IMG/VR virus record: IMGVR_UViG_3300016486_001359
Location: 3,575-47,775 of that record
Length of the DNA stretch: 44,201 nucleotides
Strand: one strand, 5' to 3'
Source of the DNA: a virus
Shown here: in pieces, positions 30,540 through 44,201 of the stretch
Layout of the letters: every line of letters begins with the position of its first letter
Numbering within the stretch: the first letter of the stretch is position 1
Made by a program: the position numbers and the translations under genes
Notes under the pieces: model-generated
The model's database searches: none
Told to the model about the DNA's origin: nothing
Seen by the model: only the letters and a program-made list of their open reading frames with translations

Positions 30540-30540
30540 A

Positions 30541-30597: not shown

Positions 30598-30620
30598 ATC
30601 GACCAATACAGTCTTCTGTA

Positions 30621-31421
<801 letters not shown>

Positions 31422-31464
31422 GGGAGCGTTTCTTTCAGTTGTTTAACTAAATAGTTCATCAAAC

Positions 31465-31483
31465 GTATGGTAACATACCATAC
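31465..31483. promoter_or_regulatory. 19-bp palindromic operator candidate
   Basis: GTATGGTA, ACA, TACCATAC: perfect 8-bp arms around a 3-nt centre, in the gap between the Sak4-like stop and the DUF669 start. GTATGGTA also occurs at 43187 in the control region, so one regulator could bind both. Confidence 0.55.
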
Positions 31484-31487
31484 TTAC

Positions 31488-32623: not shown

Positions 32624-32644
32624 TTTTGATGTTCCCTAAAACAT

Positions 32645-32670
32645 GTTGGAAAGTGTTGGAAAGTGTTAGA
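32645..32670. repeat. tandem GTTGGAAAGT repeats in the divergent promoter region
   Basis: Two exact copies (32645-32654, 32655-32664) and a partial third (GTTAGA) lie between the leftward operon (start 32623) and the rightward HTH gene (start 32813). Direct repeats in a divergent promoter suggest binding sites for the nearby HTH protein. No consensus phage promoter is visible here. Confidence 0.5.
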
Positions 32671-32765
32671 TGCTGTAATCTTAGCGGCAGGCGAAGATGG
32701 ATCAACCTCTCATCTTCTAAATTTTGAAAATTTTTCGAAATACCGAAATGTGACTAGGTTTGAGC

Positions 32766-32802
32766 GGGTTTGGCTGTTAAGGTGCCGAATCCCCTCTTTT
32801 TT
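32766..32802 (+). terminator. attenuator-like hairpin before the HTH gene
   Basis: GGGTTTGGC pairs with GCCGAATCCC (one bulge, one wobble), followed by a T-rich run directly before the ribosome-binding site TTAGGAG. This could attenuate transcription into the HTH and primase genes. Confidence 0.45.
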
Positions 32803-32812
32803 AGGAGCAAAA

Positions 32813-33013
32813 ATGGAAAGTCTACTCGAACGAACAAGACGATTGCTGTCTGCCAGACACCGAAAACTCACCTTAACAAAAATTAACCACGATACAGGTG
32901 TCGGGATTAGTTGGTTATCTGATTTAGAGGCGGGGGTTAGTCGTAACCCCGGTGTGATAACTGTTGAGATTTTATACAATTACCTGTCAGAGGAACCTTT
33001 GTTCAAAAAATAA
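32813..33013 (+). CDS. small helix-turn-helix regulator
   Basis: 66 aa from the ATG at 32813 behind a strong TTAGGAGCAAAA site. The XRE/Cro-type HTH is visible: LTLTKINHDTGVGISWLSDLEAG, then a third helix (VITVEILYNYLSE). It lies at the divergent point between recombination and primase operons and is a candidate switch or copy-control regulator. There is no dimerisation domain beyond the HTH. Confidence 0.65.
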   Translation: MESLLERTRRLLSARHRKLTLTKINHDTGVGISWLSDLEAGVSRNPGVITVEILYNYLSEEPLFKK

Positions 33014-33047
33014 TTCAATTCTTCTTTTTCTATTTAGGTTCCCACGG

Positions 33048-35294
33048 ATGATATCAGATAATATACCTCGTGAAATGCAGCACTTCGAAAGTTGGGTGTG
33101 TTGGAAATACGAAGATCGGGGTGATGCAAAACCAACCAAAGTACCCTACGATGCAAAAAATGGTCGGCTAGCTAGTGTTACAAATCCAGCAACATGGTCA
33201 AGTTTTACGATCGCAAACAGCCTAAACGGTTACTACGATGGGATTGGTTTTATTTTATCCAAAAACGATCCGTTTTGCGTAGTGGATCTGGATCACACCA
33301 CCGATCCAGATTTAATTAAAAAACAAGTAGCTTTACAAGATACTCTGAATTCCTATTCGGAGATATCGCCATCAGGTAAAGGTTTACATGTTATCGTAAA
33401 GGCCGATCTAAAGAAAGGTCGCAGAAAAGGACCGTTTGAATTTTACTCAAATGTACGATTTATGACAATGACGGGTAAAGTTTATAACCGCCAACCGGTT
33501 GTTTACGCGCAGACTCTGATTGAAACCGCAATGGAAGAATGCGGGATTTCCCTAAAAGACAACTTCCAAATCAGCAAAATAAACTCACCTGAGCGACACC
33601 AAGATTTAGAGATCTACAACTCAGCTTCTGGGGCGAAAAATGGCCAGAAGTTCATATCTCTCTGGAATGGCGATTTCCACACTTACCATTTTGGTGACCA
33701 ATCGAGAGCTGACTTCGCATTGATTGACATTCTAGCGTTTTATACGCAGAACAGAAATCAGGTGGAACGTATGTTTTTACAGTCAGGTTTAGGCCAAAGA
33801 GATAAGGCCAAACGTAAAGATTATGTGGGTAATATGGTTTCTCGCTCTTTTGATAATTTGGTGCCAGAAATCGATTTTAGTAAATTGAAATTACCGGAAC
33901 CTGTACGGGTTAATAAAATTAGCCAAAAGCCATCACACGTTTATGCTCCAACAGGTGTGTTGTCCGTACCTCCCGGTTTAACTGGTGAGATCGCAAGCTT
34001 TGTCTTTCAACAATCCCATAAACCTGTTCAAGAAATGGCAATAACTGCCGCACTAGGTTTAATGTCAGGAATTACAGGTAGGGCCTACAATGTTTCTGGC
34101 ACAGGGTTAAACCTGTATATGTTACTCTTAGCCCGTACAGGTAGAGGCAAAGAGGAAATGGCGAAAGGAATAAATAAACTGTTATTTGCGGTCCAGCAAA
34201 TTTGCCCAACCATTCTGGATTTTAGTGGTCCGGGTGACTTAGCTAGTGGTCAGGCGTTGCTGAGATACCTGACTGACCACCCAACCAAATCCTTCGTTTC
34301 TGTGTTCGGCGAGTTTGGAATAAAGCTTAAAACTATTTGTTCGGAAAGAGCAAACAGCGCGGATTTAATGCTGCAAAAAGTTATGCTAGATTTATACAAC
34401 AAATCCGGCGCTACAGACAAATTGATGCCCACAGCTTATTCTGATGCTGAACGTAATACTCAGACCATTTCATCACCTGCATTTACCATGATTGGTGAAA
34501 GTACGCCAGATTGGTTTTATGACAATGTCAACGAAACAATGATCAATTCGGGATTATTACCCCGATTTTGTGTAATGGAATACTTAGGGCCTAGACCACG
34601 CTCTAACCCAATGGGGTCAACAATACAACCTGTTGCCGAGCTAATCGAAGGTTTAGCTACACAGGTCTCCATTGTGCAAGGCTTATTACAAGCCAACCAA
34701 CGTTACCCGGTCGGTATGACAGCCGAGGCGAAAAAGCTTAGTGAAGCTTTAGACCAACGGGGAGACGACGAAATTAACTCCGTTGATTCCGGGTTATCCG
34801 CAGAACTGTGGAACCGGGCGCACTTGAAAACGCTGCGAATAGCAGCCGTGCTAGCTGTGGGTAAAAATCCTTATCAGCCTGAGATTGACAGCGAGTGTTT
34901 TGCCTGGGCCGAAAATTTCATCGTTCGCAGTGTCGAACAAATGAAACTTAGATTTGACGGTGGATTGACTGGCAATAACACCGAGCAACAACAATTGAAC
35001 AACGTGAAGCTACTACTAGGTTCCTACCTCAATTCCCGACCAGACGTTACTTATATAACCGACACCATGTACGATCGATTCGTTGTACCAATGGCTTATA
35101 TCGTCACGAAACTGTCACGAAAGAAAGTTTTCGTCAGTGACCGTATTGGGCCAATTGCGGCCATTCGCAGGACATTGAAAACGTTGATAGAAACCGGGGA
35201 GTTGATGGAAGTACCGCCCTTGCAAGCAAAAACAATGTTCCAATCTAATGGCAAGTGCTTTGTTGTCAGCGGTGATATGCTCTACTCCGAGTGA
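33048..35294 (+). CDS. primase-helicase replication protein (primpol-like + DUF3987-like)
   Basis: 748 aa from the ATG at 33048. The N-terminal part has primase-polymerase features: FCVVDLDHTTDP with Asp80/Asp82, EISPSGKGLHVIVK at 106-119, and FEFYSNVRFMTMTGK. The C-terminal part (from about 305) resembles DUF3987 helicase-like proteins (LLLARTGRGKEEMAKGINKL, FSGPGDLASGQALLRYL, VSVFGEFGIKL). The P-loop reads TGRGKEE, with Glu replacing the usual Ser/Thr. It probably primes and unwinds at the replication fork for the family B polymerase. Confidence 0.8.
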   Translation: MISDNIPREMQHFESWVCWKYEDRGDAKPTKVPYDAKNGRLASVTNPATWSSFTIANSLNGYYDGIGFILSKNDPFCVVDLDHTTDPDLIKKQVALQDTLNSYSEISPSGKGLHVIVKADLKKGRRKGPFEFYSNVRFMTMTGKVYNRQPVVYAQTLIETAMEECGISLKDNFQISKINSPERHQDLEIYNSASGAKNGQKFISLWNGDFHTYHFGDQSRADFALIDILAFYTQNRNQVERMFLQSGLGQRDKAKRKDYVGNMVSRSFDNLVPEIDFSKLKLPEPVRVNKISQKPSHVYAPTGVLSVPPGLTGEIASFVFQQSHKPVQEMAITAALGLMSGITGRAYNVSGTGLNLYMLLLARTGRGKEEMAKGINKLLFAVQQICPTILDFSGPGDLASGQALLRYLTDHPTKSFVSVFGEFGIKLKTICSERANSADLMLQKVMLDLYNKSGATDKLMPTAYSDAERNTQTISSPAFTMIGESTPDWFYDNVNETMINSGLLPRFCVMEYLGPRPRSNPMGSTIQPVAELIEGLATQVSIVQGLLQANQRYPVGMTAEAKKLSEALDQRGDDEINSVDSGLSAELWNRAHLKTLRIAAVLAVGKNPYQPEIDSECFAWAENFIVRSVEQMKLRFDGGLTGNNTEQQQLNNVKLLLGSYLNSRPDVTYITDTMYDRFVVPMAYIVTKLSRKKVFVSDRIGPIAAIRRTLKTLIETGELMEVPPLQAKTMFQSNGKCFVVSGDMLYSE

Positions 35295-35611
35295 CTCTGT
35301 AAAACCCAACGTACTACTAAATCAATAATTTTATCGATTAGGCGACCGGCGAGGTAGGACGAAATAAAGCCAAACAGAAAACCACTTTTGACGTGTTGAC
35401 TTTTTACGATCTTTCTGATGCGAGTCAGAACGAGTTTGTCGCCCTGTGCAAAGGTAGGTCTCTCATTAGCCGTATAACTTCTCGTTGCTCGCATTGCGTC
35501 TTCTGCCGTCTCACAAATCAACCTTGCTTTGGCAGATCCTTGTTTGGCCTTAAAATGACGCAACAATTCAAGGATAACGTCACTATCGTTAGTTGATCTG
35601 AGTTTAAGCAT
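35282..35611 (-). CDS. hypothetical protein with C-terminal hydrophobic segment
   Basis: 109 aa. The first half is charged and helical (ICETAEDAMRATRSYTANE). The second half has a hydrophobic stretch (SGFLFGFISSYLAGRLIDKI) that may associate with membrane. Its end overlaps the converging primase gene by 13 bp, and its start overlaps the upstream gene by 8 bp. Not recognised. Confidence 0.5.
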   Translation of the reverse strand: MLKLRSTNDSDVILELLRHFKAKQGSAKARLICETAEDAMRATRSYTANERPTFAQGDKLVLTRIRKIVKSQHVKSGFLFGFISSYLAGRLIDKIIDLVVRWVLQSHSE

Positions 35612-36011
35612 TTGTTGATTCTAGCAAAATTTTGTAAATTTCAATTAGTACCAGTCTTGCCTGTTTATCGTATCTCAGATAAACAAACAGGTTTAATGCT
35701 CGCCTAAACCAACCAGCGTCATTGTAACGCTTAGTCTGGATGTTGCTTAGCGTCACATTGACCATTTCTTCCAAGGATAACACACGACTTTGGCTTCTGA
35801 GTTTCGTGAAATCTAAACAAGCTAATTTGTTTAGACGCAGAAACATTTCGTCATCTGTTCCAACTACGTTTTCATAGTTGTCGTCAACGTATTTTTCTAA
35901 GTTGTGCATGATTTGAATTAAATTGTGTTTAGGTTGATGTTTCATTGTTTGCCAACCGAACGAACCTTTCAAGCTTCGTTGAAAGGCTCGCAATTCTTTT
36001 TTCGTTAGCAT
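35604..36011 (-). CDS. hypothetical helical protein
   Basis: 135 aa, mainly helical (LTKKELRAFQRSLKGSFGWQ, FLRLNKLACLDFTKLRSQSR). No motif is recognised. It lies 7 bp downstream of the next gene in the same operon and overlaps the following one, so it belongs to a compact leftward unit. Confidence 0.55.
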   Translation of the reverse strand: MLTKKELRAFQRSLKGSFGWQTMKHQPKHNLIQIMHNLEKYVDDNYENVVGTDDEMFLRLNKLACLDFTKLRSQSRVLSLEEMVNVTLSNIQTKRYNDAGWFRRALNLFVYLRYDKQARLVLIEIYKILLESTNA

Positions 36012-36018
36012 TCAAACC

Positions 36019-36414
36019 TCACAAATCGAAATGAACATCTGGCCAAGTTTTAATAACCGCAATTGCCTTGTTCATTTCTACAGACAACATCAAATCAGTT
36101 AGTTTAATGTCGATTAAGCGAATAACCAAAAAATCGCTTAGGGTGACGACCAAGTCGGTAGGAAACTTGAAGTGGATGTAACCATCTACCGTGGTCCCTT
36201 GATAGATCGGGAAAATTGGCTTTTCGGATTTTACAGTTATCCCCGGACGGATCACCCATTGTCTTTTGTACAAACAATCATAAAGAAGCTCTTTGATTGT
36301 AAGGGGAACTAAACCCTTTAAGTCGATATCAAAACCGGTTTTTAATACGTTGTTTCCCCTAGGATCGCTTTGCACCAACGCCGTCACAAACGAATGGCTG
36401 ATATTTTCAAACAT
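36019..36414 (-). CDS. hypothetical protein
   Basis: 131 aa, not recognised. It has a beta-rich middle (WVIRPGITVKSEKPIFPIYQ) and two hydrophobic helices (VVTLSDFLVIRLIDIKLTDL). It starts 40 bp downstream of the tRNA-like gene and may be co-transcribed with it. Confidence 0.5.
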   Translation of the reverse strand: MFENISHSFVTALVQSDPRGNNVLKTGFDIDLKGLVPLTIKELLYDCLYKRQWVIRPGITVKSEKPIFPIYQGTTVDGYIHFKFPTDLVVTLSDFLVIRLIDIKLTDLMLSVEMNKAIAVIKTWPDVHFDL

Positions 36415-36453
36415 GAAAATCCTTTATTGTTAGGGTTGGGTGTAGTGTTAAAA

Positions 36454-36552
36454 TTGATTTGGCGGGACTTGAACCCGCAGCTGGTTTTATTGGTCAAGAA
36501 TACTCAACCGTGTTGCAATCACCATCCGAATAGCCATTCTCGGCACAAATCA
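36454..36552 (-). tRNA. tRNA-like gene with oversized central region
   Basis: On the minus strand a perfect 7-bp acceptor stem (TGATTTG/CAAATCA), a 4-bp D-arm (CCGA/TCGG, GG in the loop) and a perfect T-arm (GCGGG, TTCAAGT, CCCGC) are clear. No CCA is encoded. The centre is abnormal: 47 nt lie between D- and T-stems. GTG, ATTGCAA, CAC gives a 7-nt loop with anticodon TGC (Ala) but poor outer pairing. GGTTGAG, TATT, CTTGACC forms an extra 7-bp hairpin, and 13 nt remain before the T-stem. It fills the gap between two genes exactly. Confidence 0.6.
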
Positions 36553-36560
36553 ACGCTGTT

Positions 36561-37319
36561 TTACTCCGCTGCAATTCGGAATACTCGCACGCCTTCGCCC
36601 TGTGGATCAGTTGCGCCTACTTTTCTGGACACAAAGAATTTTGTCTGAAGCATTACCTGCGAATCGACCTGATAACTTTCGACTACTTTTTTCCCGTTCT
36701 CGTCAAGAATCGGGTTGCCATCTTCATCCTTTTTCTGGCGTCGTTTAACTACTTTTTCGATTTGTGCCGGAACCGCTGGCACGCGGCTATTCTTGTTCGC
36801 TTTGCTGACGAGCACTGACAGTTTTCGCGATACTTTTTCAGCTTCTTCTTTGTCTTCCGGTAAAACAAGATGAAATGATTGTGTAATTTCCATGACGTCG
36901 AAGGGGTAAGGGTTGGGTTTGGCTGTGCGACCTCCACCGCCCGCACCTGCGCGTTTGATTGCAGGCACGGCAATACCACTTTCGACTGCGACCGTCGACA
37001 CAGGTGCAGGTGGTGCAGATGGAACAGGTGGTGCCGGTGGTGCAGATGGAACCGGAACAGGTGGTGCCGGTGCCGGTTCCGTTTGTGGTCCCGGTACAGG
37101 TGTTGGTGCGAATGGGACCGGAACAGGTGGTGCGGCTGGAACCTGTGCGTTCAGTTCCATGTGCCCCGCTGCTGTAAGAGTACATAGGTACTCATTTCCG
37201 TTCTGTGGATTCGTTTGTTCCGAGTCCACTTCAATCAGACCGAGATTGAAGAGTCCGGTTCCGGCTTCCTGTGTGAGGTATGCTGCGCCGGTTGCATGAA
37301 AAGCGTGTAGTTGTGACAT
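36561..37319 (-). CDS. Pro/Ala-rich linker protein, function unknown
   Basis: 252 aa. Residues 1-60 resemble a small winged-helix-like region (EAGTGLFNLGLIEVDSEQTN, LTAAGHMELN). Residues 60-120 are a Pro/Ala/Val linker (PVPSAPPAPPVPSAPPAP). The C-terminal 130 residues form a charged domain with KKDEDGNPILDENGKK and a beta region (VMLQTKFFVSRKVG). Similar Pro-Ala linkers occur in the DUF669 and 32153 genes, suggesting shared partner-tethering style. Not recognised. Confidence 0.55.
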   Translation of the reverse strand: MSQLHAFHATGAAYLTQEAGTGLFNLGLIEVDSEQTNPQNGNEYLCTLTAAGHMELNAQVPAAPPVPVPFAPTPVPGPQTEPAPAPPVPVPSAPPAPPVPSAPPAPVSTVAVESGIAVPAIKRAGAGGGGRTAKPNPYPFDVMEITQSFHLVLPEDKEEAEKVSRKLSVLVSKANKNSRVPAVPAQIEKVVKRRQKKDEDGNPILDENGKKVVESYQVDSQVMLQTKFFVSRKVGATDPQGEGVRVFRIAAE

Positions 37320-37331
37320 TTTGTTTTTTTC

Positions 37332-37349
37332 TGTAATGGGTGTAATGGG
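37332..37349. repeat. two tandem TGTAATGGG repeats upstream of 36561-37319
   Basis: TGTAATGGG at 37332-37340 and 37341-37349, 13-30 bp before the ATG. They could be a regulator site; no further copies were noticed. Confidence 0.4.
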
Positions 37350-37351
37350 TG

Positions 37352-37744
37352 TTATGAAAGGTACTCTATCGTTATTTCGATTGCTTGCAAGTAGTTGTAT
37401 GCGATTTTGTAGCGAAAACCTACTTTCTCTACAAAATCCTTAAATCTTATTTGTTTCTCGCTTAGTCCCCCGTTCTTTCGGGTTTCAAACCCCGGTTTTT
37501 TGAATTCTAGGTATAGACCAGAAAATCCAGCATGTGGGAACGGTAAAAAGGTATCAGCTACACCTGCCCGAACCCCTTCCGCTTTTAGTTTCCCTGCCTG
37601 TATTTTGTTTCGTTCGCCACCGTTTGGGATTGCGTGCAGCCATTCCAACGGCCAACAACCGGCATTTATTTGTTGGGACACCCAACAGAAAAACGCTGCC
37701 TGATGGCTGTGTTCCGAAATTTTGGCTATTTGGTGCGGTTCCAT
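37352..37744 (-). CDS. VRR-NUC domain nuclease
   Basis: 130 aa, a stand-alone VRR-NUC (PD-(D/E)XK superfamily) protein. Motifs are LHAIPNGGERNKIQAGKLKA (36-55), GVRAGVADTFLPFP with Asp64, and GLYLEFKKPG with Glu80 and Lys82, then LSEKQIRFKDFVEK. Such small phage enzymes cleave branched or structured DNA, probably resolving intermediates before packaging. The upstream gene ends in a TAATG overlap. Confidence 0.85.
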   Translation of the reverse strand: MEPHQIAKISEHSHQAAFFCWVSQQINAGCWPLEWLHAIPNGGERNKIQAGKLKAEGVRAGVADTFLPFPHAGFSGLYLEFKKPGFETRKNGGLSEKQIRFKDFVEKVGFRYKIAYNYLQAIEITIEYLS

Positions 37745-37953
37745 TAGTTTACAACCATGGCTGTGAAATTATAGTTTCTTTCCCGTCCGTCACAATCAAT
37801 AGTTGTAACGGCCAAAACCTTTTCATTTGACCCCTTTTCGTAGTCTTTCGCAATCACGAAAGGGGGCAGGTGTGACGGAAAACAGTTGATTTTTTTTGGA
37901 AATCCACTCGCCACCGCGACGGTCAAAACGACTTTTACTTTTTTCTGATTCAT
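37744..37953 (-). CDS. hypothetical small protein
   Basis: 69 aa. N-terminal MNQKKVKVVLTVAVASGFPK is hydrophobic but short; EKVLAVTTIDCDGRERNYNF suggests a small beta sheet. It is coupled by overlaps to both neighbours (ATGA at 37950, 1 bp at 37744). Not recognised. Confidence 0.5.
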   Translation of the reverse strand: MNQKKVKVVLTVAVASGFPKKINCFPSHLPPFVIAKDYEKGSNEKVLAVTTIDCDGRERNYNFTAMVVN

Positions 37954-38246
37954 TTTACAACCTCAAAAGTTCTTTGTTTGCCCCACGAACCGTGAGGCGA
38001 GTGAGCTAATAAATTAAAAACAGAACAGAAGTATTCCGCCTCACCCGCGTCATCTGTGGGCAGGTAGAACACCCGTCCAAACCAACTCGTTTCTGATTCT
38101 TTCAACGGCTTGGTGGCCTGAACTAATCGAAACCTACCGGTTTCATCCCATTGCGCGCAAACTGTTACCTGTGAACGCAACATTGGTTTGTTTGGGTCTA
38201 TCGGAAAACCGAAACAACTAACCGCTTTTGATTCGTATATTGTCAT
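37950..38246 (-). CDS. hypothetical protein
   Basis: 98 aa. SCFGFPIDPNKPMLRSQVTV and GRVFYLPTDDAGEAEYFCSV are visible, but no known motif. It is the first of a three-gene overlapping unit (37352-38246) and is preceded by two strong hairpins in its leader (38269-38302). Confidence 0.55.
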   Translation of the reverse strand: MTIYESKAVSCFGFPIDPNKPMLRSQVTVCAQWDETGRFRLVQATKPLKESETSWFGRVFYLPTDDAGEAEYFCSVFNLLAHSPHGSWGKQRTFEVVK

Positions 38247-38268
38247 TGGTTTCTCTGGCCTTCGTCAG

Positions 38269-38302
38269 TACGGACCTGATCCGTATACCGGGTTTCCCCG
38301 GT
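38269..38302 (-). promoter_or_regulatory. two adjacent perfect hairpins in a 68-bp leader
   Basis: Minus strand: ACCGGG, GAAA, CCCGGT (6-bp stem with a GNRA tetraloop), one base, then TACGGA, TCAGG, TCCGTA (6-bp stem), followed 23 bp later by the ATG at 38246. No T-run follows, so a regulatory or stabilising leader is more likely than a terminator. Confidence 0.6.
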
Positions 38303-38314
38303 TTCTGGCTGTTA

Positions 38315-39046
38315 TTATGCGTTCATGGCATTGGAAGCGTAGGACCAAGCTTTGGCCGTTTCGTCGTCATTGATCGACATAATCGATCGGTCAACGTCAG
38401 ACATTCCTTTTCGTCGATTCTTGTCGTGCTGAACGTAGCCGGTGATTGCCTGCGTTAGTCGCCACAGAGAACTAATGCCGTCAGTGCGAACCTTACCGTC
38501 CAGTTTTAGTTGCTCGGAATGAATCCGCGAGTAAATTGCTGCCGCGCGGGTTCTGGCTCTGGTTCTAGTGTTTTCACTCGCGTCCTCTGGAATCGGGTAC
38601 AGTTCTGCCAAAGCGTCAGCGATCATAACCGGAATTTCATTCATTTGCGTCAATTTTTCACCCATTTGGGTGAAGTCACACGACGATTCGCAAACAGCAA
38701 TCAGTTCGCTCATTCGTGTTCGTAGCTGACTGGTGTGTCGCAATGTCGACTCAAATGACACCCCCGCCAGTCTAGGGATATCTAAGTTTGCACAAGCGTC
38801 TCTATACAATCCTCCACGAATCTTGAACGTTCGGCCAAACGGCGCTTCAATGATTAGTCGGGGAAAAATCGAATCATTGCCGCCAATTCGGTACTTTTCG
38901 ATTCTCGCCTCATCTGACGGTGAGACAATGATAGTAGCCTGAGATCGCGATTTTGTTTCCGTCCAATGGGCGGATACAACACCGTCGTCACCCATCGCGT
39001 CGATTGCAGCTGACGCAAGCGCCACATAATCGTCGTGGTTGGTCAT
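38315..39046 (-). CDS. DUF932-like phage protein
   Basis: 243 aa from the ATG at 39046, in an ATGA overlap with the gene upstream and behind CAGG; an ATG at 39067 is less likely. IIEAPFGRTFKIRGGLYRDA, then SFESTLRHTSQLRTRM, and a C-terminal LTQAITGYVQHDKNRRKG recall DUF932/phage-plasmid-like proteins, which bind or process DNA in an unknown way. The similarity is weak by eye. Confidence 0.5.
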   Translation of the reverse strand: MTNHDDYVALASAAIDAMGDDGVVSAHWTETKSRSQATIIVSPSDEARIEKYRIGGNDSIFPRLIIEAPFGRTFKIRGGLYRDACANLDIPRLAGVSFESTLRHTSQLRTRMSELIAVCESSCDFTQMGEKLTQMNEIPVMIADALAELYPIPEDASENTRTRARTRAAAIYSRIHSEQLKLDGKVRTDGISSLWRLTQAITGYVQHDKNRRKGMSDVDRSIMSINDDETAKAWSYASNAMNA

Positions 39047-39228
39047 TTCATAACCTGCTTTAGACACAAACGATTGTATGCAATTTCCTGTTTTTTTGTT
39101 CCAAAACCCATAATGTGGTTGGTCGCCACCATCGAATTGAGGTGGGACGGGAACGGAAGCATTACGATCTCAGGAATACTTTCTTCAATAACTCTTGCAA
39201 CTTTTGACTCGGTAGTTTCAGCAATCAT
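39043..39228 (-). CDS. small hypothetical protein with own promoter
   Basis: 61 aa (MIAETTESKVARVIEESIPE and following), not recognised. A good promoter lies at 39273-39300 and a GAAAGC purine patch before the ATG. It is coupled to the next gene by ATGA, so the promoter probably serves both. Confidence 0.55.
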   Translation of the reverse strand: MIAETTESKVARVIEESIPEIVMLPFPSHLNSMVATNHIMGFGTKKQEIAYNRLCLKQVMK

Positions 39229-39272
39229 GTTGTGCTTTCAGTTTGTTGGTGAATGTCGGTTTGTTCTCTGGT

Positions 39273-39300
39273 ATTGTAGACTCTCAATCAGTGTTGTCAA
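39273..39300 (-). promoter_or_regulatory. sigma70-like promoter, 16-bp spacer
   Basis: Minus strand: TTGACA (39295-39300), 16 bp, TACAAT (39273-39278), 45 bp before the ATG at 39228. It shares the exact TTGACA and 16-bp spacer with promoters further right. Confidence 0.75.
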
Positions 39301-39368
39301 TCATTATTTTTCGATTGTTTCAGCATAAGCTAACAGTTTGTTTCTTCGCACCAACCAGCGTTGGCCAC

Positions 39369-39650
39369 TTAGTCGGTTTCCTGCAGACTGTGTTCGGCTT
39401 TCATACTTTCTAATTTTGCGTTTCGCCTTAGCAATTTTTCGGTTTGTAACTTCCAGATTGTCGTGGAAATCGTATTTTTTGGTTTATTCAATCTGTTCCA
39501 TTCGATGGTCAGTTGTTCTAGTTTTGCTTTACTTACCAGCTGCCCACACGGTAGCCGGAAAACAGGCTTCCCATTCGCCACAGAACTAGGCTTTGTTGCG
39601 TCTTTGATGAGGGTTCGGAGTTCGGAAACTGTTGGTTTGTTAGTGCTCAT
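39369..39650 (-). CDS. hypothetical basic protein
   Basis: 93 aa, basic and polar (TVSELRTLIKDATKPSSVAN, STTIWKLQTEKLLRRNAKLE). LPCGQLVSKAKLEQLTIEWN may form a helix pair. No family is recognised. Copy A of the CCCGG intergenic repeat lies 33-51 bp before its ATG. Confidence 0.5.
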   Translation of the reverse strand: MSTNKPTVSELRTLIKDATKPSSVANGKPVFRLPCGQLVSKAKLEQLTIEWNRLNKPKNTISTTIWKLQTEKLLRRNAKLESMKAEHSLQETD

Positions 39651-39682
39651 TTTTAGTACCTTTGGTTTGCGTGATTAAAAAG

Positions 39683-39701
39683 TCCCGGTGCCTATTCCCG
39701 G
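39683..39701 (-). repeat. intergenic CCCGG element, copy A
   Basis: TCCCGGTGCCTATTCCCGG on the plus strand. On the minus strand it reads CCGGG, 8 nt, CCGGG then ACTTTTT, able to form a short CCGG/CCGG stem. Copies B (40222-40257) and C (40805-40840) share it between other small genes. Confidence 0.6.
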
Positions 39702-39725
39702 TAGAAGGCGAAGGTCGTTCCAAGA

Positions 39726-39986
39726 CTATTGATCGGCAACCGCTTCCGCCAAATAATCGAGTTCCGATTTGATAGCGTGCAACCGTTTAAGGCGATCATC
39801 GTGTTGATTCCGTGCCAGCTTCATCGCTTCGGGTCCCAGAGGGTAGTAGTCGCGCCCGTTTGGGACGTTCGGTTTCAGGGCTTCAATTGCGTCTTCCATC
39901 GCACATGATGCGTCACAAAGGTTATCGAGAAGCTCATTTTTACTGGTACCATTTAAGTGGATGTGAGGGGACTGAAGATTTTTCAT
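39726..39986 (-). CDS. hypothetical helical protein
   Basis: 86 aa. It is predominantly helical and acidic-basic (NELLDNLCDASCAMEDAIEA, MKLARNQHDDRLKRLHAIKS). A GAAAG purine patch lies before the ATG. Not recognised; the composition suggests a small helical bundle. Confidence 0.55.
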   Translation of the reverse strand: MKNLQSPHIHLNGTSKNELLDNLCDASCAMEDAIEALKPNVPNGRDYYPLGPEAMKLARNQHDDRLKRLHAIKSELDYLAEAVADQ

Positions 39987-40040
39987 TGTTGGCTTTCTTT
40001 GTTTGCCAGAAAAGTGGAGTGGAGTAACTAAAAACCAGAT

Positions 40041-40190
40041 TCAAACTCGGGTTGCAGAAAGCTGTTCTGCTGGAACGTCAAACTCTTCTGAAATTTGGTA
40101 GCAAGCATCAACGCCACTGGTTACCCAAACAGAATCAAGAAATTGCGAACCATACATTACTTGAAAACAATACGTTTTTGATTTGGGCAT
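40041..40190 (-). CDS. small hypothetical protein (49 aa)
   Basis: 49 aa from ATG (40188-40190) to TGA (40041-40043). The sequence (MPKSKTYCFQVMYGSQFLDS, DACYQISEEFDVPAEQLSAT) looks like a normal soluble peptide. No strong ribosome-binding site is visible. It fills an otherwise empty gap between 39986 and 40258, with copy B of the CCCGG element 32 bp before the ATG. Confidence 0.45.
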   Translation of the reverse strand: MPKSKTYCFQVMYGSQFLDSVWVTSGVDACYQISEEFDVPAEQLSATRV

Positions 40191-40221
40191 CGTGTTGGCC
40201 GTCTCACTGACCAGTTGAAAA

Positions 40222-40257
40222 CCCGGTGCCTATTCCCGGATTAAGGTTGAACTTGTG
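40222..40257 (-). repeat. intergenic CCCGG element, copy B
   Basis: CCCGGTGCCTATTCCCGG, then ATTAAGGTTGAACTTGTG shared exactly with copy C. It lies between the stop of the pentad-repeat gene (40258) and the small gene starting at 40190. Confidence 0.65.
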
Positions 40258-40773
40258 CTATTTATGTGGACCCGATTCGTCGACAACGTCAATCAGAGGC
40301 AACGCTCTGCCGTCTCTGTCGTGGCCGGATCTGTCGTAGCCGGATCTGTCGTAGCCGTCTTTGTCGTAGCCGTAGCCGTATACGTATCTGCCGTAGCCGT
40401 CTCGGTCTCTGCCGGATCTGTCGTAGCCGTCTCGGTCGTAGCCGCAAGCGTCTCTGCCGTATACGTCTCTGTCGGTATCGGCAATCCGCATCGTCGCGAA
40501 GTTGTGAATCTCCGAAATCGTGCGGCGGGAATCAAAAAGCCAGACGGCATCCGCTAGACTTAATCCCAGCAGTGCGGTGGCATCCGTGTGCGAGTCTTCC
40601 GGATACTTGTGAACCTCGGTTCCGTGCGCGAACACCTGAGACCACCCACCAACGCAGTGTGAGGTGCCACAGTGCCAACTAGACTGATTGTGCGTTTCGG
40701 GATGCGCAACCAGTTGGTTCACGACCTGCGACAACAGTCTTTTGTTCAGGCCGCTTGTCTCTTCAACAGTCAT
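40258..40773 (-). CDS. phage protein with CxxGW-type domain and YDRDG pentad repeats
   Basis: 171 aa behind AAAGGATTGAGACC. Residues 30-90 carry a widespread phage motif (WHCGTSHCVGGWSQVFAHG, then DATALLGLSLADAVWLFDS). The C-terminal 65 residues are tandem pentads of the form (Y/G)DR(D/S)G with variants (YGRYV, YGYGY, YDKDG). Pentads alternate aromatic and charged residues, so the tail may be disordered and prone to phase separation or binding. The function is unknown. Confidence 0.65.
   Translation of the reverse strand: MTVEETSGLNKRLLSQVVNQLVAHPETHNQSSWHCGTSHCVGGWSQVFAHGTEVHKYPEDSHTDATALLGLSLADAVWLFDSRRTISEIHNFATMRIADTDRDVYGRDACGYDRDGYDRSGRDRDGYGRYVYGYGYDKDGYDRSGYDRSGHDRDGRALPLIDVVDESGPHK
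40318..40470 (-). repeat. GTCGTAGCCG-type tandem repeats encoding DRDGY pentads
   Basis: About nine 15-bp units (mixed GTCGTAGCCGTCTCG and variants) span this stretch of the coding region. The length is likely variable between relatives. Confidence 0.7.
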
Positions 40774-40804
40774 GGTCTCAATCCTTTCGGGTTAATTCAA
40801 AAAA

Positions 40805-40840
40805 TCCCGGAACCTATCCCGGATTAAGGTTGAACTTGTG
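40805..40840 (-). repeat. intergenic CCCGG element, copy C
   Basis: TCCCGGAACCTATCCCGG followed by ATTAAGGTTGAACTTGTG. On the minus strand AATCCGG can pair with CCGGGATT (one bulge), followed by TTTT. It lies between genes ending at 40844 and starting at 40773. Confidence 0.65.
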
Positions 40841-40843
40841 TTG

Positions 40844-41089
40844 TTACCGACCACTTACCATTCCAGACCAAGCAATACCAGTTGGACGCGGGTGTTTGGT
40901 TTGTTGCCATTTACGGACTAATTCTGTGCGTAAACCCACATGGGCGTGATTGTCGTGGATTATTGCGACGCAAGCATGACCACTTTGGATATTGACAAAA
41001 GGTGCGTCCGCTGTATTTCCGCAAATAGTGCAAATGGAATTACAATCTACGCTTGCTTTTGCCAATTCCAATGTCTTAAAAATCTTCAT
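40844..41089 (-). CDS. small protein with cysteine pair
   Basis: 81 aa from the ATG at 41089 behind GAAAGAAAAAAA; an ATG at 41128 gives 94 aa. CNSICTICGNTADAPFV suggests a single metal-binding knuckle, followed by HACVAIIHDNHAHVGL. Not recognised. Confidence 0.5.
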   Translation of the reverse strand: MKIFKTLELAKASVDCNSICTICGNTADAPFVNIQSGHACVAIIHDNHAHVGLRTELVRKWQQTKHPRPTGIAWSGMVSGR

Positions 41090-41163
41090 TTTTTTTCTTT
41101 CAAGAAAACGGATTAAACTGGTTTTCATGCGCCCCCGAAATTTTTTCGATTTCCGGATGGTTT

Positions 41164-41394
41164 TTATGCCATTTTTCCATTAACGCAAATCCGGATTCCG
41201 AAGTTTCGCCCCATGCTATGGTCTTCGCGGGATAATGCGACTGCATCAAATCCACCAAAATACTTCCATGGCCGGGTTTTTACTCTCAACCCACCAAATT
41301 TCGTTTGTTTCTTCAACTGGTCTAAACTCAATACAACCGTGTTCGGTGGTAAGAAAAATCCATCACTCTGACTGACAGTTATTTCATGTTTCAT
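41164..41394 (-). CDS. hypothetical protein next to a palindromic site
   Basis: 76 aa from the ATG at 41394; the open frame extends 6 codons further to a TTG. GFFLPPNTVVLSLDQLKKQT and KYFGGFDAVALSREDHSMGR are visible. A possible -10 (TATATT) lies 22 bp before the ATG, and a 22-bp perfect palindrome 48-69 bp before it, so it may be regulated by a dimeric repressor. The function is unknown. Confidence 0.5.
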   Translation of the reverse strand: MKHEITVSQSDGFFLPPNTVVLSLDQLKKQTKFGGLRVKTRPWKYFGGFDAVALSREDHSMGRNFGIRICVNGKMA

Positions 41395-41441
41395 AGTTAC
41401 CGATTGTTCCAATATATTCGTAGTCGTAAGTCTTTCGAAGC

Positions 41442-41463
41442 TGTAACCTGAATTCAGGTTACA
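41442..41463. promoter_or_regulatory. 22-bp perfect palindrome, operator candidate
   Basis: TGTAACCTGAA directly followed by its reverse complement, with no spacer (centre GAATTC). It lies between genes starting at 41394 and ending at 41472, upstream of a putative TTCGAA/TATATT promoter, where a dimeric DNA-binding protein would block transcription. Confidence 0.7.
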
Positions 41464-41471
41464 CCATCCAA

Positions 41472-41642
41472 TTACTCACCTTTTCGCTCTTTAACCAGCG
41501 AATGACCGTTTCCATCTATTCCATCTGGCCAATTACAGCGGTAACATTCGTCCGAACCGTCCTGAAAGTCTTCGGGTAAGCCCCGTGCCCCGCAGGTGGA
41601 ACAAAGAATATATTGGTATTGTTTATCGTCGTCTGGTTTCAT
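41472..41642 (-). CDS. zinc-ribbon miniprotein
   Basis: 56 aa from ATG (41640-41642), with the strong site AAGGGGAACACA before it. CSTCGARGL and CYRCNWPDG form a four-cysteine ribbon; both ends are acidic or basic. It follows the 41653-42084 gene by 10 bp. This type of miniprotein recurs in the region (28492, 42300). Confidence 0.65.
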   Translation of the reverse strand: MKPDDDKQYQYILCSTCGARGLPEDFQDGSDECYRCNWPDGIDGNGHSLVKERKGE

Positions 41643-41652
41643 TGTGTTCCCC

Positions 41653-42084
41653 TTATTCTTGTTCGCTCAACCTAGTTCTAAGTTCTGCCGATGTTTTTTT
41701 CAGCGGTTCAGAATCCAAATTTTCGTACCCAAAATATTCCCCGACCATTCGCCATGCCATGGCGCGACGAATTGGATCGTCGGAACAAATATCGAAAATA
41801 AATTCTGCCGGACTAGTTCCGAAACAATCGGCAAGTCTTTCTAAGTCTTTTGGTTTTCCGAACCAAGCCGAAATTTCAGGATGGGATTTATTATCGCTCA
41901 GAACACCATTCCCGTACGTACACCGTTCACAGTCAAATTCGTAAACAAGGTGTTTACTTGATTCTTCGTCCTGTTGTACCCACATTTCAATTCTAATTTC
42001 TTCGTCTTCCGTTTCGAAGACGAAGAAACCGCCATGCTCAATAGGATCGGCATCCCCTAGGTTTGTAATCAGTTTTCTTGTCAT
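41653..42084 (-). CDS. hypothetical acidic protein
   Basis: 143 aa from the ATG at 42084, directly downstream of a promoter. The start MTRKLITNLGDADPIEHGGF and the promoter-leader share about 60 bp with the gene at 42495-42818. The middle has VYEFDCERCTYGNG with one cysteine pair; the C-terminal helix region (LADCFGTSPAEFIFDICSDD) is not recognised. It is probably an early accessory protein. Confidence 0.6.
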   Translation of the reverse strand: MTRKLITNLGDADPIEHGGFFVFETEDEEIRIEMWVQQDEESSKHLVYEFDCERCTYGNGVLSDNKSHPEISAWFGKPKDLERLADCFGTSPAEFIFDICSDDPIRRAMAWRMVGEYFGYENLDSEPLKKTSAELRTRLSEQE

Positions 42085-42103
42085 TGTTTCGCTTTCTGTA
42101 GGT

Positions 42104-42131
42104 AGTCTAGTCTTCGTTTGTTTGGTGTCAA
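42104..42131 (-). promoter_or_regulatory. phage promoter TTGACA-16-TAGACT
   Basis: Minus strand: TTGACA (42126-42131), 16 bp, TAGACT (42104-42109), 19 bp before the ATG at 42084. The upstream context ATATTGC is identical to that of the promoter at 43059-43086. Confidence 0.85.
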
Positions 42132-42142
42132 GCAATATTTCT

Positions 42143-42286
42143 TTATTTGTTTTTGGAATCAGCGACAATAATGTCTCCGATTTTTCGCCAAGCTTGCGCC
42201 CTGTATTGTTTCGGTGGGTTTCGCTTAGCTTCTTTTGCTCGTTTTAGAGCAACTTCGATTCGCTTGCGCGTTTCGTGATCGTACAT
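42143..42286 (-). CDS. small basic protein
   Basis: 47 aa from the ATG at 42286; the longer open frame to 42349 covers a promoter-like sequence. It is a highly basic helix (RKRIEVALKRAKEAKRNPPK), so it could bind nucleic acid. A TACACT -10-like box (42308-42313) lies 21 bp before the ATG, without a good -35. Not recognised. Confidence 0.5.
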   Translation of the reverse strand: MYDHETRKRIEVALKRAKEAKRNPPKQYRAQAWRKIGDIIVADSKNK

Positions 42287-42299
42287 TGTTTTTAGCTTT

Positions 42300-42470
42300 C
42301 TATCGGCAGTGTAGGTTCGGTTCGGTTCCGCAGCGGTCGCAAACATCACCCGAATAGGTGTCGCCTAAGCACAACCGTGTTTGTACGTTGTCATCATCAC
42401 ACTTGCATTGATCGCAAACGATCAATCCGTTTTCGAGTAAGCTCGTTTTTGTGTTTAATTTCGTTCTCAT
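42300..42470 (-). CDS. zinc-ribbon miniprotein
   Basis: 56 aa from ATG (42468-42470) to TAG (42300-42302). CDQCKCDDDN and CDRCGTEPN form a four-cysteine site. AGAAAGACAAG precedes the ATG, and TAAACT (42492-42497) could be a -10 with no clear -35. It overlaps nothing and fills the gap left by neighbours. Confidence 0.6.
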   Translation of the reverse strand: MRTKLNTKTSLLENGLIVCDQCKCDDDNVQTRLCLGDTYSGDVCDRCGTEPNLHCR

Positions 42471-42494
42471 GATTCTTGTCTTTCTGTGGGAAGT

Positions 42495-42818
42495 TTAGTT
42501 TCTGCGAGCATCCGCTACTTGAGTATCGGATAGCATCCACCGCGTAGCAGGAGACACACTGAGACCTGCGTATCCCAACGCTGTCGAGCCTGCGGGGACA
42601 AGCGACATCATTGCGGCCTCTGCCAGCTCGCGGGTCGGATAGACAGCTACGTCGTCGCCGCTGGCTGCTTTCACCACTTCGCCGCTAGCTACTCCGGAGG
42701 CGAGTATTCGCCATTCGCCTTCCTCGATAAGACCCGGTGTGGTGGTGATGACATATCCGTATGTTGCTTTGATTTTTTTCATTTTCTTAACCTCGTTGGT
42801 GGTCAGTTTTCTTGTCAT
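42495..42818 (-). CDS. hypothetical protein with duplicated promoter-leader
   Basis: 107 aa from the ATG at 42818, in a promoter and leader nearly identical to those of 41653-42084 (MTRKL start). An internal ATG at 42782 with GAGG before it would give 95 aa. GEWRILASGVASGEVVKAAS and TRELAEAAMMSLVPAGSTAL suggest a small alpha/beta protein. Its GC-rich, Ala/Gly/Ser-rich composition differs from neighbours and hints at separate acquisition. Confidence 0.6.
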   Translation of the reverse strand: MTRKLTTNEVKKMKKIKATYGYVITTTPGLIEEGEWRILASGVASGEVVKAASGDDVAVYPTRELAEAAMMSLVPAGSTALGYAGLSVSPATRWMLSDTQVADARRN

Positions 42819-42833
42819 TGTTTCGCTTTCTGT

Positions 42834-42861
42834 AGTCTAGTTTTCGTTTGTTTGGTGTCGT
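42834..42861 (-). promoter_or_regulatory. phage promoter with degenerate -35
   Basis: Minus strand: ACGACA (42856-42861), 16 bp, TAGACT (42834-42839), 16 bp before the ATG at 42818. It lies mostly inside the 3' end of the upstream gene. Spacer and leader match the promoter at 42104-42131. Confidence 0.7.
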
Positions 42862-43037
42862 GTAAGAAACCAGACTGCTGACACCAGACTTTGCAACACG
42901 TCTGTGTCTTCGTTCGGATACCGGCTGCACGCGCCGGCTTTCCACCAATCACGAGCATTTTTCAAAATCTGGTTTGTGGGTTCGAGTTCCGCCAACAATT
43001 TGCCTTCTTTGATTATTTGTTCTTTGATTGTTAACAT
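42837..43037 (-). CDS. small hypothetical protein, first leftward gene
   Basis: 66 aa (MLTIKEQIIKEGKLLAELEP and following), helical with ARDWWKAGACSRYPNEDTDV. It is the first gene leftward of the control region and is served by two tandem promoters (43059-43086, 43138-43165), so it is likely among the earliest expressed. Not recognised; early position makes a host-takeover role possible. Confidence 0.6.
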   Translation of the reverse strand: MLTIKEQIIKEGKLLAELEPTNQILKNARDWWKAGACSRYPNEDTDVLQSLVSAVWFLTRHQTNEN

Positions 43038-43058
43038 GGTTTCTTTGTTTCTATCGGT

Positions 43059-43086
43059 AGTCTAGTCTTGGTTTCTTTGGTGTCAA
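43059..43086 (-). promoter_or_regulatory. phage promoter TTGACA-16-TAGACT
   Basis: Minus strand: TTGACA (43081-43086), 16 bp, TAGACT (43059-43064), 21 bp before the ATG at 43037. Confidence 0.85.
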
Positions 43087-43137
43087 GCAATATTTCAAAG
43101 TTTATTTTCAAAGTTTCTTTTGGTTTGTGTTGTCGGA

Positions 43138-43165
43138 AGTATAGGTTCGGTTGGTTTGTTGTCAA
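43138..43165 (-). promoter_or_regulatory. phage promoter TTGACA-16-TATACT
   Basis: Minus strand: TTGACA (43160-43165), 16 bp, TATACT (43138-43143). It lies about 75 bp upstream of the previous promoter with no start codon between, so the two are tandem. Confidence 0.85.
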
Positions 43166-43200
43166 GCAATAATCTCAAAATAAATTTGTATGGTATCCTG

Positions 43201-43240
43201 CATAGGTATGGTGATGGGTGTCGTTCACCTTGCACCTATG
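43201..43240. promoter_or_regulatory. nested inverted repeats in the control region
   Basis: CATAGGT (43201-43207) pairs with ACCTATG (43234-43240), and inside it GGTGA (43210-43214) pairs with TCACC (43225-43229). It lies upstream of the tandem leftward promoters. GTATGGTA at 43187 nearby matches the arm of the palindrome at 31465. Confidence 0.5.
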
Positions 43241-43438
43241 ATAGGCTAGGGTGCCAACTTAGCGAATTGCAATGTTGTAATACGTACCCCGAGCTAGCAA
43301 AAAAAATTACACACCCATGATATTATGCAAAATTTCTCAAAACGTTCATTTTTCTTCATTTTAAGTCTTACTACACTGTATACCAACAAAGACGAACCAC
43401 CTTATACCAAGGGTATGGGGCCACAGACACCTATACCT

Positions 43439-43551
43439 TATAGTATGCAGCATATGCTGCATACTATAGGAAAAGCATAGTATGCTGCATACCATGCTTT
43501 TTGTAAAACGCATGGTATGCAGCATACTATACAAACACCCATGGTACCATG
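43439..43551. repeat. cluster of large perfect palindromes; origin or control candidate
   Basis: 43038-43548 is 511 bp with no credible gene. It holds the two leftward promoters, the nested repeat at 43201 and this cluster: a 30-bp perfect palindrome (43439-43468, centre CATATG, TATAGT at both ends), an inverted repeat with 21-bp arms and a 12-nt loop (43477-43497, 43510-43530), and a 12-bp palindrome CATGGTACCATG (43540-43551). The word TATGCAGCATA recurs in both orientations. ACCATGCTTTTTG is repeated at 43491 and 43547. Confidence 0.8.
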
Positions 43552-43944
43552 CTTTTTGCAACCAGACGAACACAATTCAGCAACCCATATTTCGGCAACC
43601 CATATTTCAGCGCCAACCAGCAACCAGCAACCAGCAACCGCCAACCAGCTGACGATGCTTCAGCTGGTTCAGATGCTGAAGCTGACGACGATACTACAGA
43701 TGCTTCAGATGCTTCAGCTGACGATGCTGACGATGCTTCAGCTGGTTCAGATGCCGATGCTGCTGAAGCTGACGACGATGCTGCTGAAGCTGAAGCTGGT
43801 TCAGATGCCGATGCTGCGAAACGAAAGCAAACGAAAGCAAACCAAAAAAATGTAAAGAAGTTAGTTGACAGTACCGAAACAGAACCTATAGTTCACCGAA
43901 CACAAACCAACCAAAACCAAAACCAACTGAAGGCAAACCAGTGA
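43549..43944 (+). CDS. repeat-derived acidic Ala/Asp-rich ORF
   Basis: 131 aa. The start ATG sits inside the last palindrome without a ribosome-binding site. Residues 10-34 come from 15-bp and 7-bp tandem repeats; 35-90 are almost only Asp, Ala, Ser and Glu (DDASAGSDAEADDDTTDASD); the end is Lys/Asn/Gln-rich. Other frames are also open because of the repeats. Its stop overlaps the GTG of the next gene (GTGA), the best evidence for translation. If made, it would be a disordered, DNA-mimic-like acidic protein. Confidence 0.35.
   Translation: MLFATRRTQFSNPYFGNPYFSANQQPATSNRQPADDASAGSDAEADDDTTDASDASADDADDASAGSDADAAEADDDAAEAEAGSDADAAKRKQTKANQKNVKKLVDSTETEPIVHRTQTNQNQNQLKANQ
43581..43649. repeat. 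tandem microrepeats (2 x 15 bp, 5 x 7 bp)
   Basis: CAACCCATATTTCGG (43581-43595) and CAACCCATATTTCAG (43596-43610), then five AACCAGC-type 7-bp units (43615-43649, one being AACCGCC). The 7-bp unit length changes the reading frame when copy number changes. Confidence 0.85.
43865..43892 (+). promoter_or_regulatory. rightward phage promoter TTGACA-16-TATAGT
   Basis: TTGACA (43865-43870), 16 bp, TATAGT (43887-43892). It lies in the 3' end of the acidic ORF, 48 bp before the GTG of 43941-44123. Confidence 0.85.
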
Positions 43945-44123
43945 AAAACGCAACAACCAAGACGATAATTGCAACATTATTGTTGAACGGATTCATTGCC
44001 AGCGATTTCAACCTTGCCAGCGTAGTCGCAAACTACGTTGGTACTGCAGCGGGTTCTGCAGCGGATTCGGTTGCTGCAGTTGAGCGCACAACAGGGTTCA
44101 GCAATCTGTTGATTGTGGGCTAA
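43941..44123 (+). CDS. small hydrophobic protein with own promoter
   Basis: 60 aa with a GTG start at 43941 behind GAAGGCAAACCA. N-terminal KTIIATLLLNGFIASDFNLA suggests a weak signal or membrane helix; the rest is Ala/Ser-rich (VVANYVGTAAGSAADSVAAV). It is served by the promoter at 43865-43892 and coupled by GTGA to the ORF before it. Not recognised; an early membrane-active peptide is possible. Confidence 0.5.
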   Translation: MKNATTKTIIATLLLNGFIASDFNLASVVANYVGTAAGSAADSVAAVERTTGFSNLLIVG

Positions 44124-44149
44124 AACCAAAAAAAATATAAAGAAATCGG

Positions 44150-44177
44150 TTGACACTACCGAAACCAAGTCTAGACT
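44150..44177 (+). promoter_or_regulatory. rightward phage promoter at the window edge
   Basis: TTGACA (44150-44155), 16 bp, TAGACT (44172-44177), 24 bp before the end of the window. No gene lies between it and the edge. If the sequence closes into a circle, it would drive the HD hydrolase at 16. Confidence 0.8.
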
Positions 44178-44201
44178 TCACTGGCAGAAACGAAACGAAA
44201 C

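Follow-up and report, generated by a model that had tools for sequence, protein, structure and literature searches.

The palindromes in the divergent control region near 43 kb of this phage formed a genuine and well-formed cis element, far beyond what chance would produce, whose repeat unit was a 13-bp dyad box, GTATGCWGCATAC. The element is of a known general kind, and we consider it most likely to be a site at which proteins assemble on DNA; among the functions weighed below, an initiator-binding replication origin used by the phage's own prim-pol/helicase came first, as a tentative choice held at a little under even confidence, and an operator cluster came close behind it. The window analysed, 44,201 nucleotides long, runs from 3575 to 47775 in a virus record of 47,775 bases (L081), and its numbering is used unless record positions are named. 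Judged from its gene content, the source is an uncultured bacterial virus distantly related to the Septimatrevirus, Titanvirus, Kilunavirus and Lokivirus phages.

Two large structures made up most of the cluster, and all of its palindromes and boxes are listed without a strand. The 30-bp perfect palindrome TATAGTATGCAGCATATGCTGCATACTATA at 43439-43468 consisted of two overlapping dyad boxes (43444-43454 and 43453-43463), which as 13-bp sites have one mismatch each and span 43443-43455 in the left half and 43452-43464 in the right half. An inverted repeat at 43477-43530 could be read as 21-bp perfect arms around a 12-nt spacer or as 26-nt arms at 96%, and each arm held one exact dyad box (GTATGCTGCATAC at 43480-43492 and GTATGCAGCATAC at 43515-43527). 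Both structures had been claimed in a sequence-only reading of this DNA, and both exceeded the shuffled controls: the longest perfect palindrome in 60 dinucleotide shuffles of the window was 12-18 bp, compared with 30 bp observed, and the longest perfect arm (gap of 20 or less) in 12 shuffles was 9-12, compared with 21 observed. The same reading held that three palindromes share one word, which was borne out for these two but not for the 12-bp palindrome CATGGTACCATG at 43540-43551, read from the sequence, which overlaps a repeated word, TACCATGCTTTTTG (43490 and 43545), and lacks the TATGCAGCATA box. With up to one mismatch, TATGCAGCATA was matched 10 times over both strands where 0.49 matches were expected, a count reached in none of 100 shuffles.

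Across the 47,775-base record the dyad box GTATGCWGCATAC had two exact sites, four with up to one mismatch and five with up to two, the fifth being a degenerate copy with two mismatches at 43193-43205, just upstream of the -35 of the leftward promoter. All five lay within 335 bp (43193-43527), with none elsewhere in the record at that threshold, and 40 shuffles gave means of 0, 0.05 and 0.575 sites for zero, up to one and up to two mismatches, with a maximum of two at the loosest of these settings. Allowing three mismatches gave 12 sites against 7.1 expected, so looser matches to the box are mostly noise. An iteron origin would carry several copies of one repeat at a single locus, as the five boxes do, and would space them regularly, which they do not, the box centres being 9, 28 and 35 bp apart and the fifth lying 250 bp off. 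The confinement of all boxes to one locus favours an origin, because the operator of a regulon would be expected at other promoters too.

The palindromes lay within, or on the border of, the record's largest gene-free gap (43038-43548, 511 bp), the longest of nine gaps over 100 bp in a gene list made in this analysis. This gap had been described as lying between the leftward and rightward promoters; the gap is real, but the inner strong promoters, 43165-43138 (- strand) and 43865-43892 (+ strand), are 699 bp apart, the left one inside the gap and the right one inside a 131-aa ORF. The left one has the form TTGACA-16-TATACT and the right one TTGACA-16-TATAGT, and both fire away from the palindromes. 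The promoter scan placed a second leftward promoter (TTGACA-16-TAGACT) at 43059-43086 (-) and a second rightward promoter (TTGACA-16-TAGACT) at 44150-44177 (+), and a third strong leftward promoter (TTGACA, 16-bp spacer) lay at 42131-42104 (-), so that all five strong promoters near the cluster face outward and stand 270 bp or more from the palindromes. Between 42104 and 44177 the five early promoters also share spacers within each direction (ACCAAA-rich leftward, ACCGAAAC rightward), a likeness greater than we would expect for sigma-70 promoters. The ORF at 43549-43944, which is built of Asp/Ala/Ser codon repeats, begins inside the 12-bp palindrome, contains the rightward promoter and has no obvious ribosome-binding site; it may not be a gene.

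TATAGT words at the two ends of the 30-bp palindrome had been taken for -10 boxes of this phage. The words are present and in opposite directions, but they read inward, and none was used by the nine promoter-like sites found in the scan (3.1 expected). Because no -35 stood at the proper distance and TATAGT was not over-represented in the window (15 copies against 11.5 expected, three of them in the cluster), we concluded that, by the tests run, the palindrome ends do not serve as promoter elements through this word. Four weaker sites (9/12) were also listed, one inside the cluster (43507-43479, -) and one reading towards it (43159-43186, +), and these two could carry transcripts through the cluster, although chance alone would account for about three of all the sites listed. 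Since the strong promoters fire outward, the element probably works as DNA: the palindromes lie outside the main transcripts, which makes roles at the RNA level unlikely and roles at the DNA level likely.

Folding of the cluster as single-stranded DNA set it apart from every other stretch compared. The fold of 43430-43565 reached -41.6 kcal/mol, or z -9.8 (shuffles -15.9, sd 2.6), and none of 200 shuffles was as stable. In a G+C-corrected scan of 21,845 windows of 120 bases from ten genomes or records, the cluster window (43427-43546) was the strongest outlier at z -7.7; the next in its own record reached -4.3, and the best windows of the other nine genomes or records ranged from -3.5 to -5.6 (R7M being represented by its first 50,000 bases). 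The best window of SCUT-S4, at z -5.6, was inside the polymerase gene, and that of BAPIC_0004, an unannotated record, reached z -5.05. The second strongest window of the studied record (z -4.3) contains a hairpin with 16-bp perfect arms at 2155-2200, and a second long perfect palindrome, TGTAACCTGAATTCAGGTTACA (22 bp, 41442-41463), occupies the gene-free gap 41129-41471 with a sequence unlike that of the boxes. At the start of the record, positions 378-739 form a 362-bp gene-free stretch with a repeated GTGTAGTCAAAGTGA word, a strong rightward promoter and a fold window of z -4.0 at the left edge, and it is a competing location for control elements or for an origin.

An A+T-rich stretch of low duplex stability, 43303-43382, separates the fifth box from the other four, and we consider this stretch a candidate unwinding element of the kind that adjoins the repeats of iteron origins. 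Just 115 of 47,696 80-bp windows in the record were less stable (the least stable 0.24%), and the stretch fell in one of the 25 300-bp bins that hold the 400 least stable windows. An exact DnaA-type 9-mer was absent from 43166-43864, where three with one mismatch were found. A bidirectional origin would be expected to change the skew independently of coding direction, and the earlier reading proposed checking for a GC-skew switch at 43.4 kb, for which the calculation gave no clear support. At fourfold-degenerate sites on the + strand, GC skew in the four gene blocks was -0.003, -0.037, -0.019 and -0.062, near zero on both sides and without an origin signal, and AT skew (-0.200, 0.061, -0.004 and -0.105) showed no two-arm pattern. 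The whole-sequence cumulative GC skew had its minimum at record position 857, about 1.7 kb past the cluster if the genome is circular (3165 after detrending), which is the position that the turn in gene direction alone would give. GC skew was thus rejected as evidence for an origin, whole-sequence skew tracking coding direction.

The record has GAAAC-type repeats at both ends with no 20-mer common to the end stretches compared, so it is probably a single genome broken at the repeat. Its gene content includes a DNA polymerase, a helicase, a Cas4-like exonuclease, Sak4, an SSB and a small HTH gene followed by a primase/helicase. The identity of the primase and polymerase to those of isolated phages was about 41-45% among the matches listed, and the nearest contig, G004, had a primase identity of 56-57%. 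The genes that lie beyond the primase share its direction in RcSpartan, KL1, SCUT-S4, Halfdan and LPPA15 but run towards it in the studied phage and in G004, which gives the studied phage an additional divergent region, at 43 kb, that is missing from those five isolates. G004 stops on both sides short of the part that would match 43 kb. Three contigs (L004, L005 and L089) carried tail proteins 97-100% identical to those of the studied phage, being 10-13 kb long and matched at the tail genes.

Searches for the region itself found little. The dyad box was absent from L004 and L005 in a search of six records, which gave one lone match with one mismatch, in G006. Relatives of the early-gene proteins were not found in viral contigs or phages, nor relatives of the polymerase in viral contigs, and a near DNA search of 30001-44201 against phages and a search of E. 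coli genomes found no homologous DNA. Distant DNA searches with 43121-44201 gave matches confined to query positions 526-709 (seven phage and 12 plasmid records listed), which are the repeats of the ORF near 43.65-43.83 kb. Eight isolated relatives with the same type of replisome had no box cluster, four of them having a lone box with one mismatch, and none had a stem-loop comparable to the z -7.7 fold, their strongest windows being z -3.5 to -5.6; small hairpins with 12-13 bp arms occurred in gene-free gaps of RcSpartan, KL1 and R7M. This lack of the hairpin in isolates counts against a conserved stem-loop origin. Conservation of the palindromes, whose absence the earlier reading named among its refuting conditions, was thus not seen in distant relatives, in a comparison of low power for which no close relative spanning the region was found.

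Two boxes within 32 bases of each other were found in two viral contigs, neither of which resembled the studied phage in the parts compared, and in 49 genome stretches, all of which were inspected and appeared to be coding repeats, hairpins or scattered palindromes; the idea that the box is the operator of a known regulator was accordingly dropped. A 20-bp box spacing recurred in 12 of the 49 stretches, 11 of these inside an ORF and mostly from Lachnospiraceae, and the 12 are perhaps one gene. An exact 15-mer occurred in 71 viral stretches, about chance level by our own estimate. In one viral contig (L083, positions 13701-13872) five palindromes like AACTGCTATGCAGCATAGCAGTT lie inside a gene whose product resembles replication initiation proteins (E 7.4e-15), an array that resembles the lambda-O arrangement.

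The replicase gene (32964-35294, +) encodes a primase with the Pfam NrS-1 HBD and DUF3987 domains, its helicase part being recognised as DUF3987 and by its PHROGs name; an alignment suggests that the true start is probably the ATG near codon 29. The closest solved relatives were 7ola ('DNA primase', E 3.7e-28) and 6a9w ('Primase', E 3.4e-23), which we take to be proteins of SaPI5 and NrS-1, respectively. The C-terminal 125 residues were modelled as a winged helix (pLDDT 80), a call that rests on the structural comparison and on the order of helices and strands in the model. In that comparison the top rows had Z of 8-9.4 and 27 of 1000 chains reached Z 8; models that lack a clear match often give Z 7-8, and the best here was 9.4; the top rows are, we presume, mostly winged-helix domains. 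Foldseek gave no match for this domain at E 0.001 or better, and the SaPI Rep, pRN1 and P4 domains were not among the best 50 of the 1000 structural rows. A model of the full-length replicase (pLDDT 41) was discarded. A template motif ascribed to NrS-1, TTTGGTTA, had four matches against 3.6 expected and did not occur in the available main text of the NrS-1 paper, and it was rejected.

Our preferred reading is an inference, in which a protein, proposed to be the phage's own replicase, would bind at the cluster and replication would start there. The five dyad boxes on the two sides of the A+T-rich stretch would be occupied by a dimer or a multimer, the proposed binder being the prim-pol/helicase acting through its modelled C-terminal winged helix. 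Binding, helped by extrusion of the two palindromes as hairpins or cruciforms, would open the A+T-rich stretch, allowing a helicase ring to load and the prim-pol to start primers for both forks, which would lead away from the cluster and run in step with outward early transcription. The single-locus boxes, the unstable stretch, the largest gap, the outward promoters and the type of replicase speak for an origin. Against it stand the absence of a fourfold-site skew and of a cluster in the eight isolates, the distance of 8 kb to the replicase gene, the irregular spacing of the boxes, the A+T-rich stretch being one of 25 such bins, and the lack of an exact DnaA 9-mer. By analogy, pRN1 may also count against it, as the replicase was not seen to bind the stem-loop region specifically in the part of the pRN1 study available to us (PMC4234260).

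The complete design, in which an NrS-1-like prim-pol/helicase with a modelled winged helix would act far from its own gene on hairpin-forming dyad boxes flanking an unwinding stretch between divergent promoters, is in our estimate unlikely as a whole. If true, a single site would unite the features of an iteron origin with those of a pRN1-type stem-loop origin, and we know of no description of such a combined phage origin. A broad literature search found no mapped origin for this phage group, and this counts as weak negative evidence. The cluster makes testable how prim-pol/helicase replicases locate their start sites: box and candidate binder are both defined, and one purified protein and short pieces of DNA would suffice. 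The earlier choice of the region as the leading candidate for a replication origin or master switch was reasonable on the grounds of the single box locus, the unstable stretch, the outward promoters and the replicase design, but not on those of skew or -10 boxes.

The most serious alternative, somewhat less probable to our minds than an origin, is that the boxes are operators through which a dimeric phage or host regulator, either the small HTH protein (32813-33013, +, which precedes the replicase gene) or an early protein not recognised as a regulator, balances the two outward early promoters, possibly by looping between the four-box cluster and the box at 43193-43205. A dyad of 11-15 bp is the usual shape of a dimer operator, the cluster lies between divergent early promoters, and the centre of the fifth box falls about 34 bp upstream of the -35 hexamer of the leftward promoter, a position used by activators; a small HTH gene, recognised by weak matches, is also present. 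The other four boxes, however, are at least 278 bp (left) and at least 338 bp (right) from the inner promoters, too far for simple blocking, and the overlapping pair, with centres 9 bp apart, is unlikely to hold two dimers together. Apart from the fifth box, none with up to two mismatches was found at 22 promoter-like sites or at the HTH gene, and the HTH protein, which aligned poorly even with its positional counterpart in KL1 (E 0.29), therefore lost its support as the binder that the sequence-only reading had named. An operator would make this ordinary phage gene control, and a single site serving both purposes, at which the binding of an origin would at the same time adjust the early promoters, would fit the observations. 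Partition, recombination and telomere-resolution sites can also contain perfect palindromes with nested repeats. We think a function of this kind improbable: the Pfam and PHROGs tables listed neither a protelomerase nor ParA/ParB nor an integrase among the proteins scanned, a subset of the ORFs (one PHROGs table giving the best 25 of 54 families), and the annotation of RcSpartan, KL1, Halfdan and SCUT-S4 names no such gene. Integrase was likewise absent from the annotation of the first 50 kb of R7M, and a 'master switch' in the lysogeny sense is weak, there being no integrase in the proteins scanned or in the annotation of these five relatives.

Hairpins acting in RNA, as a terminator, a processing site or a small RNA, are the least probable of the readings considered. 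Perfect arms would be expected to pair in RNA as they do in the fold computed for DNA, and the weaker sites (9/12) at 43159-43186 (+) and 43507-43479 (-) point at or through the region, but the five strong promoters fire away from it and a terminator scan placed none in the cluster. Seven of nine sub-threshold Rfam matches lay over the cluster, all below their gathering scores and from unrelated hairpin families, and we set them aside as what a hairpin would match by chance. It is also improbable, though less so than an RNA role, that the structure is a functionless mutational by-product, in which template switching made inverted copies of a 26-bp unit, ATAGTATGCTGCATACCATGCTTTTT, and the same process kept them symmetrical. 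The copies of the unit are indeed inverted, fused back to back or truncated, and the genome carries several expanded simple repeats; against this, a 48-kb phage keeps 511 bp gene-free here with all copies in or at the edge of the gap, and the degenerate fifth box beyond the A+T-rich stretch would be left unexplained.

Several other features of the genome were recorded. Simple repeats lie inside the SSB gene (GCAGGA-type, 30788-30982) and inside a gene at 40296-40481 (CGTCTCTGTCGTAGCC-type), and a tail gene with Laminin G domains contains a 300-bp direct duplication (23402-23701 and 24032-24331) at 92% identity. Before the window, early in the rightward operon, record positions 963-1139 encode a CsrA-like RNA-binding regulator (PHROGs CsrA-like E 8.3e-20 for 858-1139; Pfam CsrA E 2.8e-21 in one of 35 proteins scanned). 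Record positions 2107-2955 probably encode a ThyX-type thymidylate synthase, the Pfam Thy1 and PHROGs thymidylate synthase matches, each to one of the 35 proteins scanned, having been assigned to this gene by us. A weak Pfam match to the Acb2/Tad1 hairpin domain (E 0.0011) was found in one of the 35 proteins scanned, other than the 39726-39986 protein.

Among known systems, the repressor operators of temperate phages are dyad boxes between divergent promoters, and CI/Cro-type operators overlap the promoters that they control. In contrast, most of the boxes studied here are far from promoters, and neither an integrase nor a CI-like repressor was among the proteins scanned. Lambda iterons are evenly spaced inside the initiator gene; the cluster resembles a lambda-type origin in having about four dyad boxes adjoining an A+T-rich stretch, but differs in that no O-type initiator was among the proteins scanned. 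The origin of the PLE satellite, in the portion of the source available, has semi-palindromic repeats in a non-coding region (PMC7145576). For SaPI Rep and SCCmec Cch2, the available text describes initiators whose C-terminal domain acts on repeats directly downstream of their genes, Cch2 needing direct repeats for binding while inverted repeats are dispensable (PMC7581432). These elements use a helicase or a primase-helicase as initiator, with DNA binding assigned to its C-terminal domain, together with several short repeats; the studied phage has a putative initiator of that design (its C-terminal domain modelled) and several short repeats as well. Unlike them, it has a convergent ORF (35282-35611) immediately after the replicase gene, with the cluster at a distance of 8 kb. 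The c2-type lactococcal phages (Ceduovirus) have their origins between divergently transcribed blocks, in a gene-free region as here, and these fall into three sequence types without significant mutual similarity according to the part of the source available (PMC7150918). Since c2-type origins differ among groups, non-conservation at the present distances is compatible with an origin.

A further close comparison was with the crenarchaeal plasmid pRN1, whose replication needs a stem-loop of about 100 nt that follows the replicase gene and has no iteron structure, in the available portion of the study by Berkner and colleagues (PMC4234260). The same portion proposes a stem-loop as the assembly site for replication proteins that, like that of phage BIP-1, combine an archaeo-eukaryotic primase, an SF3 helicase and a winged helix, and it describes BPP-1 as nearly identical to BIP-1 (PMC4234260). 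The studied replicase had no significant alignment with the BPP-1 primase (E 0.24). In a control scan of BPP-1 the top window was 26601-26720 (z -5.1), which holds a hairpin at 26607-26710 with 48-nt arms, 83% complementary, and repeated GCCTCGTTT words; divergent genes flank the gene-free gap that contains this hairpin, the 3' end of the primase gene lies 467 bp before it with one small gene between, and we note the hairpin as a candidate origin. Like pRN1, the studied phage combines a replicase of primase, helical bundle, helicase-type domain and C-terminal winged helix (the last modelled), a small DNA-binding protein gene before the replicase, and one outstanding large stem-loop in gene-free DNA. 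Unlike in pRN1, that stem-loop is not directly downstream of the replicase gene but 8 kb from it, and it is made of repeated dyad boxes.
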